Positions 29,304-31,468 of a DNA stretch of 45,670 nucleotides are shown here, piece after piece. Origin of the DNA: Chloroflexota bacterium (GTDB lineage: Bacteria > Chloroflexota > Anaerolineae > Aggregatilineales > Phototrophicaceae); the NCBI GenBank assembly GCA_011523515.1, contig WTGO01000092.1:1-45670 (forward strand), read 5' to 3'. The notes beneath the pieces are model-generated. The model searched no databases, was not told where the DNA came from, and saw only the letters and a program-made list of their open reading frames with translations. Made by a program: the position numbers and the translations under genes. How positions within the stretch are numbered: position 1 is the first letter of the stretch; each line of letters opens with the position of its first letter.

Positions 29304-29909
29304 ATGGCAGTTACTGCAAAAGAGGTAAAGGCACTGCGGGACAAGACCGGCGCCGGTCCGCTGGATTGCAAGAAGGCGCTGGAACAGCACGGCGGCGACC
29401 TGGTTGCGGCGGCCGAATTCCTGCGCGAGAAGGCGCTGAAAGACGGCATCAAGCTGCAAGGCAAGGGCCGCAGCGCCAACGAGGGAGTCATCGGCAACTA
29501 CCTGCACTTTGACCAGCGCCTGGCCGTCATTGTCGAGGTCAATTGCGAGACCGACTTCGTGGCGGCGACTGATCAATTCAAGTCATTCGCCAAAGACATC
29601 GCCATGCACATCGCCAATATGAACCCGCAATACGTCAAGCGTGAAGATGTGCCGGAAGCGCAAGTAGCTGCCGAGAGCCGGCTGCAGATGGAGCGCGCCC
29701 TGGGTGAAGGCAAGCCGGAACACATCGCCGAGAAGATCGTCGCCGGGCGCCTCAACAAGTGGTACGAGGAGATAGTCTTGATGGAGCAAGCCTTCATCAA
29801 AGACGATGACAAGACCATCACGCAATACTTGCAGGAGACGGTGGCCGAGGTCGGCGAGACCATCAATATCGGTCGTTTCCAGCGTTTCAAGGTCGGCGGC
29901 GAGAATTAA
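29304..29909 (+). CDS. tsf: Elongation factor Ts
   Basis: Guanine-nucleotide exchange factor for EF-Tu. 201 residues, the short form with one core subdomain copy, as in actinobacteria, cyanobacteria and Chloroflexota, rather than the ~280-residue E. coli form. TGAGPLDCKKALEQ (normally TGAGMMDCKKAL) contacts EF-Tu, and VNCETDFVA is also conserved. GGAG precedes the ATG. A strong terminator follows. Confidence 0.98.
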   Translation: MAVTAKEVKALRDKTGAGPLDCKKALEQHGGDLVAAAEFLREKALKDGIKLQGKGRSANEGVIGNYLHFDQRLAVIVEVNCETDFVAATDQFKSFAKDIAMHIANMNPQYVKREDVPEAQVAAESRLQMERALGEGKPEHIAEKIVAGRLNKWYEEIVLMEQAFIKDDDKTITQYLQETVAEVGETINIGRFQRFKVGGEN

Positions 29910-29917
29910 GCTCATGC

Positions 29918-29945
29918 GTGGCCGGCGCGGGCCCGGCCTGGCCAC
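29918..29945 (+). terminator. GC-rich hairpin after tsf
   Basis: GTGGCCGG pairs with CCTGGCCAC-type bases (8 pairs including one G-T), with a GC-rich inner part. It starts 9 nt after the tsf stop, has no T-run, and precedes the stronger terminator at 29966. Confidence 0.5.
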
Positions 29946-29965
29946 AGGCGCAGGACGAGATGACG

Positions 29966-29998
29966 AGGGATTGGTCGCTGGCTGATCCCTTTTGTTTT
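29966..29998 (+). terminator. Intrinsic terminator of rpsB-tsf
   Basis: AGGGATTGGTC (29966-29976) pairs with GGCTGATCCCT (29980-29990) over 11 positions (three G-T pairs) around a 3-nt loop, followed directly by TTTGTTTT. This is a textbook rho-independent terminator. It ends only 11 nt before the next ATG (30009). Confidence 0.8.
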
Positions 29999-30008
29999 GG
30001 GCGGGGCG

Positions 30009-30689
30009 ATGACTCCAATTGAGCGCGATTGGCGAATCCGCCAACACATTTATGAGGCGCTGGTGGCGAGTGGCCGCGCGCCGGATGCGTCGGCAATCGC
30101 CGAGCGCTTCTCCATTACGCGGCGGGACGCGCGCCACTCGCTGCGGCGGCTGCGCGATGCCCATGCGCTGGTCATGCAGCCCGGCGGCGACGCGGTGCTG
30201 ATGGCGCATCCGCTATCGGCAGTGGAGACCGATTATCGCGTATTTGTCGACGGCGTCGCGCTCTATGCCAATTGCGCCTGGGATTCGCTGGGCATCCCCG
30301 CCATGCTGGGCCGCGACGCGGCCATTGCTGCGCGCCACCCGCTGACAGGAGACGTGCTGCGCTACTCTATCGACGCCGGGCGCCTGCGCAGCGATGGCGA
30401 ATTCCTTGTGCATTTCGCCCACCCTTTTCGCCAGTGGTATGACGACATTGTAGAAACGTGAGCGGGAATTCTGCTCTTCCGGTCGGAAGACGAGATCGCT
30501 GAATGGCGTCGAATCCGGGGGCGCGAAACAGGCGCGGTGTTACCATTGATGAAGGTTTGGTCGCTGGCGGAGCGCTGGTACATTGACAGGATGTCTCCGG
30601 CGTACCGCGGCGGCGACGCCCAACGCGCCCAAAGCCTCTTCCGCGCGCTGGACTTGACAGACGATTTCTGGCTTTTAACATCGGGATAA
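30009..30689 (+). CDS. MerB-like organometal lyase with in-frame UGA, candidate selenoprotein (Sec151)
   Basis: Reading through TGA at 30459-30461 gives 226 residues. The N-terminal winged helix (about 9-50) is followed by the MerB core. YANCAWDSLG holds Cys89 and Asp92, spaced like catalytic Cys96 and Asp99 of MerB. GIPAMLGRDAAI and HFAHPFRQWYDDIVET lead into the TGA, and after it the same frame continues as AGILLFRSEDEIAEW ... VWSLAERWYIDRMSPAYR ... DDFWLLTSG to TAA. In MerB the second catalytic cysteine, Cys159, precedes the HVHFFAS strand; TGA occupies this place, 62 residues after Cys89 (63 in MerB). A SECIS-like hairpin follows. MerB cleaves carbon-mercury bonds; whether this protein acts on mercury or another metal is unknown. 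Alternative: a nonsense mutation. Confidence 0.82.
30459..30461 (+). other. UGA codon predicted to encode selenocysteine
   Basis: An in-frame TGA between Thr150 and Ala152 of the MerB-like protein. TGA is an ordinary stop elsewhere in the window (for example at the ends of the sulfite reductase and S2-neighbour genes), so genome-wide recoding is unlikely and local Sec insertion is the better explanation. Confidence 0.78.
30470..30495 (+). promoter_or_regulatory. Candidate bacterial SECIS element
   Basis: TCTTCC (30475-30480) and GGAAGA (30485-30490) form a perfect 6-bp stem capped by GGTC (30481-30484). A 2x2 internal loop and a further TCT/AGA stem (30470-30472 with 30493-30495) lie below. 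The apical loop starts 19 nt after the TGA, within the usual bacterial range of about 16-37, and begins with G. E. coli fdhF has a GGUC-containing loop about 18 nt after its UGA. Confidence 0.72.
30654..30681 (+). promoter_or_regulatory. Candidate pyrH promoter
   Basis: TTGACA (30654-30659, perfect -35), a 16-bp spacer, then TAACAT (30676-30681). It lies inside the last codons of the MerB-like gene, so the hexamers also encode Leu-Thr and the C-terminus. The match may be chance. Confidence 0.45.
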
Positions 30690-30739
30690 CCCACATGATC
30701 CGCGACTTGTCGACGTCAACTTTGGAAAAAGGAGCGACC

Positions 30740-31468
30740 ATGAGCCTGAGTGGCGAGCTGCCCTATCAACGCGTGCTCTTGAAGCTGAGCGGCGAAGCGC
30801 TGGCCGACGACAGCGGCGCCGGCCTCGACCCGGAGAAGGCAGCCTACATCGCCCAGCGCGTCCGCGAAGTCTACGAGCTCGGCATCCAGGTCGCCATCGT
30901 CATCGGCGGCGGCAACTTGTGGCGGGGCGAGCCCGCCGCCAAGCTGGGCATGGACCGCAGTACCGCCGACCACATGGGCATGATCGCCACCGTGATGAAC
31001 GGCCTGGCGCTGCAAGACGCCATCGAACGCCTGGGCATCGTCACGCGCGTCCAGACCGCGGTCGAGATGAATTCCATTGCCGAACCCTACATTCGCCTGC
31101 GCGCCATCCGCCACCTTGAGAAGGGGCGCGTGGTCATCTTGACCGGCGGCATCGGCAGCCCCTATTTCACCACCGACTCGGCCGCCGCCTTGCGCGCCAG
31201 CGAGATCCACGCCGATGTCATCGTCAAAGCCACCAAGGTGGACGGCGTCTATTCGGCCGATCCCATGCGCAACCCCGACGCCCGGCGCTACCGCCGACTG
31301 GATTACCAGCAGGTGCTCGATCAGCAGCTGCGTGTGATGGACACCACAGCCTTCACGCTCTGCCAGGAAAACACCATGCCCATCATCGTGCTCGATTTCT
31401 GGAATCCGCGCGATCTGGTCAAAGCGCTCTCGGGCGATGCCTCGGTCGGCACCGTCATCAGCGGTTGA
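30740..31468 (+). CDS. pyrH: UMP kinase
   Basis: Phosphorylates UMP to UDP; hexameric amino-acid-kinase-fold enzyme. 242 residues. LLKLSGEAL, VIGGGNLWRG, RSTADHMGMIATVMNGLAL, ILTGGIGSPYFTTD and ATKVDGVYSADP are all PyrH signatures. ATG 30740 is chosen for its AAGGAG (30728-30733) and homology; an in-frame ATG at 30695 is less likely. The order rpsB-tsf-pyrH is widespread in bacteria, but frr, which usually follows, is absent here and the MerB-like gene is interposed. Confidence 0.97.
   Translation: MSLSGELPYQRVLLKLSGEALADDSGAGLDPEKAAYIAQRVREVYELGIQVAIVIGGGNLWRGEPAAKLGMDRSTADHMGMIATVMNGLALQDAIERLGIVTRVQTAVEMNSIAEPYIRLRAIRHLEKGRVVILTGGIGSPYFTTDSAAALRASEIHADVIVKATKVDGVYSADPMRNPDARRYRRLDYQQVLDQQLRVMDTTAFTLCQENTMPIIVLDFWNPRDLVKALSGDASVGTVISG

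Follow-up and report, generated by a model that had tools for sequence, protein, structure and literature searches.

The contig WTGO01000092.1 of a Chloroflexota bacterium (GenBank assembly GCA_011523515.1), analysed here over 45,670 nucleotides (the window), carries on its forward strand, at 30009–30689, a gene for a 226-residue relative of the alkylmercury lyase MerB that is interrupted by one in-frame TGA and closed by a TAA stop (30687–30689). The evidence favours a MerB-related enzyme in which the UGA at the position of MerB Cys159 is read as selenocysteine (Sec), and which probably breaks carbon–metal bonds, most probably carbon–mercury bonds, through Cys89, Sec151 and Asp92. The parts of this reading differ in strength: the sequence evidence makes it nearly certain that the product is a selenoprotein, and, if it is one, analogy with MerB makes a carbon–metal lyase activity likely, with mercury as the most likely metal by homology.

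The frame comprises 150 codons, the TGA at codon 151 (30459–30461, forward strand) and 75 further codons, and codons 89–92 (30273–30284) spell Cys-Ala-Trp-Asp, the counterparts of MerB Cys96 and Asp99, with the TGA falling 62 residues past Cys89. Re-reading of the sequence agreed in these respects with the initial annotation, which had described a single TGA within an open frame, 75 codons behind it, the C-x-x-D motif and the same spacing. An open frame past a TGA is by itself no evidence, because in the window 56 stretches of 80 or more codons between stops end in TGA and have at least 50 open codons behind them. The Pfam MerB model PF03243 scores 95.9 bits against a gathering cut-off of 27 over residues 69–191 (30213–30581), a catalytic domain that the TGA splits in two. 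The part ahead of it (30009–30209) gives weak helix-turn-helix matches below cut-off and is modelled as the winged-helix-like N-terminal part of a MerB fold. The predicted fold of the whole protein matches MerB (PDB 5c17 / 3f0o) at 17–21% identity, and the segment that follows the TGA contributes strands and helices to that fold in a high-confidence part of the model.

In MerB, Cys96 and Cys159 bind mercury, while Asp99 assists proton transfer and product release, as set out in the available portion of PMC4525700. Sequence alignment places the TGA at Cys159, as had been proposed at the outset. Cys96 and Asp99 are matched by Cys89 and Asp92, whereas Cys159 is replaced by UGA, predicted to encode selenocysteine; the window protein further differs from MerB in an extra C-terminal stretch, beyond the aligned part, that ends in a conserved FW, and in that no mer operon is recognised around its gene.

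Conservation of the TGA carries much of the argument. In a survey of 298 genomes of the window's class, 27 of which gave any match, 22 genomes keep the TGA at the aligned position, at 23 loci in all; a gene of the same kind in genome G270 (locus L021) has Cys at the site, and the other matches are canonical or distant MerB-like genes, or ambiguous. The class alignment includes two fragments (L023, L028) and one edge-cut locus (L019), while L025 and L026 gave no match in the alignment step. A scan of named genomes with two patterns, one demanding a Cys codon at the site and the other containing NC[AGV]WD, confirmed 166 relatives, and the counts given here rest on the best 80 of these. Each of the 80 contains a single TGA, which lies at the shared alignment position and precedes the family motif; no Cys form is among them, though one of the search patterns could have returned such forms. 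By the titles of their metagenome-assembled genomes (MAGs), in which binning errors are possible, the 80 loci belong to Chloroflexota (47), Acidobacteriota (11), Gemmatimonadota (7), Verrucomicrobiota (4), Thermomicrobiota, Fidelibacterota (Marinimicrobia) and Planctomycetota (2 each), and Calditrichota, Myxococcota and Pseudomonadota (1 each), with 2 lacking a phylum.

At position 151, where the initial annotation had looked to homologues for a verdict, all full-length relatives read have either TGA or Cys, and Thr precedes the TGA codon in 92 of 95 alignment rows. Downstream of the codon, the nonsynonymous rate (dN) lies below the synonymous rate (dS) in 10 of 13 pairs, the other three (one identical, one without dS among them) giving no comparison. 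Conservation of the codon and of the protein behind it confirms, as far as sequence can, that the TGA is real rather than a chance occurrence; a sequencing error, also raised at the outset, is very unlikely because relatives from other assemblies keep the TGA. A quick tree with long branches, used only to place the window gene, sets it in a starred clade of 77 rows in which only L021 has Cys (L114 has TGA), and the Cys forms L035–L037 and L145 fall just outside that clade together with L022 (support 88, not starred).

Protein databases show the same boundary from the other side. Two queries returned 292 and 448 homologues, and among the best 120 listed for each, 238 distinct proteins in all, 232 end at the Thr just before the site and so are cut short at their likely catalytic residue, although the records do not show the stop codon itself. 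Four are full length with Cys at the site (P0029, P0122, P0123, P0179) and two diverge ahead of it (P0026, P0124). One of the 232 shortened entries, P0002, is the window's own protein and ends at residue 150, exactly where a standard annotation had been expected to end it.

Directly 3' of the codon lies a hairpin (30475–30490, forward strand) that resembles a bacterial selenocysteine insertion sequence (SECIS). Its stem pairs UCUUCC with GGAAGA around the loop GGUC (30481–30484), and its GGUC loop, 6 pairs and UGA-to-loop distance of 19 nt fit the rules given in the available portion of PMC13188914, namely a loop of 3–9 nt, an upper stem of 4–16 bp, a G in the first two loop positions and a UGA-to-loop distance of 16–37 nt. 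CUCUUCC-GGUC-GGAAGA or a near variant follows the TGA in most members, with GGUC at the same place in 84 of the 94 sequences used for the statistics (91 distinct, an accidental match to the second U of L015 having been dropped from 95 rows). In these, 90.1% of cells pair, against 86.6% in shuffles, and two-sided changes occur at 5 of the 7 column pairs tested in the family (the window stem has 6); none of 500 shuffles matches the observed pairing or the two-sided value, the number of further pair types is equalled in 9 of 500, and sliding the partner strand by 1–3 columns lowers pairing to 48–66%.

Codon choice points in the same direction: within the element CGG accounts for 82 of 92 Arg codons and TCG for 83 of 85 Ser codons, against 23% and 33%, respectively, in the rest of the same genes. 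Because codon choice is constrained in this way, the F-R-S-E motif of the family probably reflects the RNA element. In the Cys forms L021 and L035–L037, FES, FAS or FSS stands in place of FRS and the loop sequence is absent, whereas P0029, P0122 and P0123 retain FRS and are perhaps recent converts from Sec to Cys. A sublineage comprising L063 and L065–L070 has FREE for FRSE and GUGA for GGUC as SECIS loop, which makes it a natural variant of the element.

The machinery for selenocysteine is present in the window genome (G000; 4.15 Mb, 144 contigs, 94.9% complete), in which selA, selB, tRNA-Sec (selC, anticodon tca) and selD, the four genes that the initial annotation had named for a genome search, are all over cut-off; its selD has an in-frame TGA of its own within SCAGUAAK. 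A selA match occurs in all 35 TGA-form genomes identified in the phylum, that is, in 22 of 22 class genomes (21 over cut-off, with a fragment at a contig end in G104) and, over cut-off, in 13 of 13 further ones, which are not a census, some weak matches (e.g., G312, G325, G330, G430) being unread. By contrast, selA is matched in 0 of the 4 genomes in which this branch has a Cys form (G316, G333 and G371, of one family, and G270), and selD of G270 contains no TGA. As markers, SelB and tRNA-Sec call for strict thresholds: at E <= 0.001 SelB is useless, matching every one of the 14 controls as well as 298 of 298 genomes, so the curated cut-off, passed by 239 of 298, was used, while tRNA-Sec at E <= 0.001 likewise matches all 14 controls and scores of 47–51 resemble ordinary tRNAs (G146 reaches 50.5 and has no selA). 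The conserved TGA, the machinery in the genome and the Cys of full-length relatives together bear out the selenocysteine predicted at this codon, and the alignment of UGA with Cys, the hairpin rules and the set of selA, selB, tRNA-Sec and selD are shared with selenoproteins of in-gene SECIS type such as formate dehydrogenase and SelD.

On this basis a mechanism can be proposed in which SelB would bind the hairpin and bring Sec-tRNA to UGA151, the metal of R-Hg or of a comparable organometal would be captured by the Cys89 thiolate and the Sec151 selenolate, Asp92 would pass a proton to the leaving carbon with release of R-H, and the metal would be held on sulfur and selenium until cell thiols removed it. 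Selenolates bind mercury more strongly than thiolates do, and they are ionised at neutral pH. The metal likely goes to thiols or selenols rather than to a mercuric reductase, because no MerA over cut-off (the best window-genome match scores 333.6 against 454.45 bits) and, among the neighbours scanned, no mer gene was recognised. Known bacterial selenoproteins are mostly redox proteins, and a Sec residue that catalyses protonolysis in a lyase would fall outside that pattern.

A number of observations weigh against this reading. Among the 22 TGA-form class genomes, selD exceeds its cut-off in 20 (not in G104 and G109) and tRNA-Sec scores above 60 bits in 19 (G085 reaches 48.3, G104 47.3 and G186 41.4), and selA exceeds its cut-off in 26 of the 30 genomes outside Chloroflexota (not in G601, G606, G614 and G617); such gaps in the Sec set may be explained by incomplete MAGs. 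Co-occurrence with selA is weak evidence within the class, because the capacity for selenocysteine is common there (selA over cut-off in 246 of 298 genomes), and genomes with canonical or distant Cys-type MerB are mixed, G150 and G428 having selA and G083 and G556 lacking it. Ten of the 94 hairpin sequences are without GGUC, 7 of them having GUGA, and folding energy does not single the hairpin out (z of -1.45 in the window; mean z of -0.57 over 85 sequences); the SECIS case rests on codon bias and covariation, which were convincing where folding energy was not.

The presence of CxxD in all of the best 80 loci, as in the class loci covering the site, is partly due to selection, because the motif stood in a search pattern. 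Moreover, identity to characterised MerB is low, and the Cys forms L021, L148 (Paraburkholderia plasmid) and L149 (Sphingomonas panacis plasmid) have CxxC, with Cys at the Asp99 position. As regards context, no mer gene was recognised among the 8 scanned neighbours in the window or among 25 listed of the 44 Pfam families found in 39 close same-strand neighbours of relatives (a single mer-related family among the other 19 is possible; GFO_IDH_MocA alone occurs twice among the 25), the more distant loci have no neighbour family that recurs in more than a few of them, and MerA exceeds its cut-off in only 2 of the 22 TGA-form class genomes (G171, G286). Finally, selenolates bind Hg(II) very tightly, which could slow release of the metal.

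Several of these points would suit a selenoprotein with a MerB fold that does not cleave carbon–metal bonds, in which Cys89 and Sec151 would form a redox pair, or which would bind or sense a metal(loid), or act as a lyase on a non-metal substrate. Such a protein, unlikely but to be reckoned with, would fit the lack of recognised mer context, the rarity of MerA in TGA-form genomes, the winged-helix-like N-terminal part, the CxxC of some Cys-form relatives, the retention of the gene between tsf and pyrH in the window's lineage, and the arrangement in G171, where some 100 bp separate MerA from a MerB-like gene of the Cys form on contig C140 (G171:C140:192557-194525) and the Sec form is elsewhere, on C89. 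The winged-helix part belongs to the MerB fold as well, however, and all three MerB catalytic positions are kept, CxxD partly through the search pattern and Sec or Cys at the third, which speaks against such a protein.

That the gene belongs to a mer operon was considered and rejected, no mer gene having been recognised among the neighbours scanned. MerA exceeds its cut-off in 3 of 34 genomes tested, and from the neighbourhood, MerA and G171 results together, mer operons and the Sec family appear to be separate. The Cys and Sec forms of G171 constitute a natural pair for comparison. Three matches to the MerA model below cut-off contain one in-frame TGA each (G117:C39:55392-56744, G186:C198:3515-4864 and G019:C81:13191-14531) and may be selenoproteins, pseudogenes or errors.

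Identity with SaoL, the MerB-like selenoprotein of the Sec-assisted organometallic (SAO) system described, with the motif CU, in the available portion of PMC13188914, is highly improbable. Like the window protein, SaoL is related to MerB and listed as a selenoprotein, and its NCBI model NF040728 does match the window protein at 1.2e-9. The score, however, is 38.3 bits against a cut-off of 140, so that the link to SaoL suggested in the initial annotation finds no support; the match stops at position 135 of the 159-position model, ahead of Sec151, the cut-off is exceeded in 0 of 151 genomes of the phylum, and the window protein has TU rather than CU at the Sec site, a comparison made with the NCBI model and the listed motif and not with a SaoL sequence. 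None of the 8 scanned neighbours is a transporter permease or substrate-binding protein (one is a two-ATPase ATP-binding cassette protein without a permease), and Pfam recognised no SAO partner (SaoB, SaoC, SaoT, SaoP and others) among these 8, no whole-genome search for them having been made.

More broadly, no NCBIfam model (June 2026) claims the window protein over its cut-off, the two MerB models reaching 49.3 of 193 bits (NF009710) and 40.9 of 200 bits (NF033555). The available portions of the reviews PMC9312934 and PMC13188914 list one MerB-like selenoprotein, which the latter equates with SaoL; MerB is not mentioned in the main texts of PMC2398784 and PMC5029168 (word search), nor in the available part of the deep-Sep paper PMC12013277. 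The open PubMed Central literature thus held no Sec-containing MerB beyond SaoL or the 'alkylmercury lyase MerB-like protein' of review tables, with two key papers, the primary SaoL paper among them, and supplements outside the search and an earlier description possible. Because no NCBIfam cut-off is reached and the reviews list only the SaoL-type protein, the window protein is called, from its sequence, a MerB-family selenoprotein distinct from SaoL.

That the TGA is an ordinary stop, leaving a 150-residue protein and a decaying remnant, is extremely improbable: gene callers do end the protein there, as the 232 shortened database entries show, but the same TGA and downstream protein are kept in all 80 of the best loci, dN is below dS in every pair that gave a comparison, the hairpin covaries, and the part past the TGA is modelled confidently as elements of the fold. 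The possibility that the genome reads UGA as another amino acid, e.g., Trp, under which the open frame would look alike, is negligible, since an aminotransferase gene (end 28157) and pyrH (end 31468), both with full Pfam matches, stop at TGA, the genome has the full Sec machinery, and it is Cys rather than Trp that the relatives read show at the site.

Relatives with two such codons also occur. In three other genomes of the phylum, MerB-like genes have a TGA at each of the two catalytic cysteine positions (UxxD/E and the Cys159 site), with three paralogues in G418 (L041/L127, L143, L146) and one gene each in G307 (L039) and G362 (L046, a weak, short match). The GGUC loop follows the second site in 5 of 5 of these genes, in L039 with a compensating U–A pair; L046 has GCUGCU-GGUC-AGCAGC behind the first TGA as well, and in the G418 copies a hairpin at the first site is no more than plausible. 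A selA match is present in each of the three genomes, L128 is the closest relative with one Sec to the copies in G418, and a model of L041 (predicted local distance difference test, pLDDT, 91.4) resembles MerB, all 11 of its matches at E <= 0.001 being MerB chains.

It is therefore tempting, though somewhat less probable than its contrary, to see here a widespread, unnamed family of Sec-dependent organometal lyases, spread over about 10 bacterial phyla and independent of mer, which would demethylate methylmercury or act on other organometals by a thiolate–selenolate pair, with one branch predicted to have a double-Sec active site, in which Sec would replace Cys96 as well as Cys159. If so, the family would have been overlooked because gene callers stop at UGA and merB surveys seek Cys159; one such survey, in the available portion of PMC8261052, checked homologues for a set of residues that included Cys159.

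The gene is flanked upstream in the window by tsf, encoding elongation factor Ts (29304–29909, forward strand), and downstream by a pyrH-like gene of the amino acid kinase family (30695–31468, forward strand, stop TGA), which by its position is probably UMP kinase. When 780 neighbouring open reading frames were clustered, rpsB, tsf or pyrH was found near the gene in 25 of the best 80 loci, in addition to the window; a lineage-specific upstream gene recurred in 4 Acidobacteriota loci, and the clusters otherwise comprised few loci. The rpsB–tsf / pyrH neighbourhood is that of close relatives (window 29304–31468; L047–L070, L082), and Sec-dependent read-through might affect pyrH expression if a transcript is shared. 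Among plasmid-borne relatives, L149 has a DUF302 gene behind it, and L150, on the Rubrobacter radiotolerans plasmid NZ_CP007515.1 (2468–2934), is a decayed copy that is annotated as a merB of 90 residues and in which the Sec site holds TGA and is surrounded by frameshifts.

The chemistry of mercury and selenium is usually discussed as the poisoning of selenoenzymes; in this family, selenium appears to be a purposeful component of a MerB-type active site. If the proposed activity is true, these genes would give the environment a further pathway for breaking down organometals, one that surveys for merB can overlook. Together, the Cys/Cys, Cys/Sec and predicted Sec/Sec forms would constitute a natural series of one active site in which the effect of selenium on carbon–metal cleavage could be tested.
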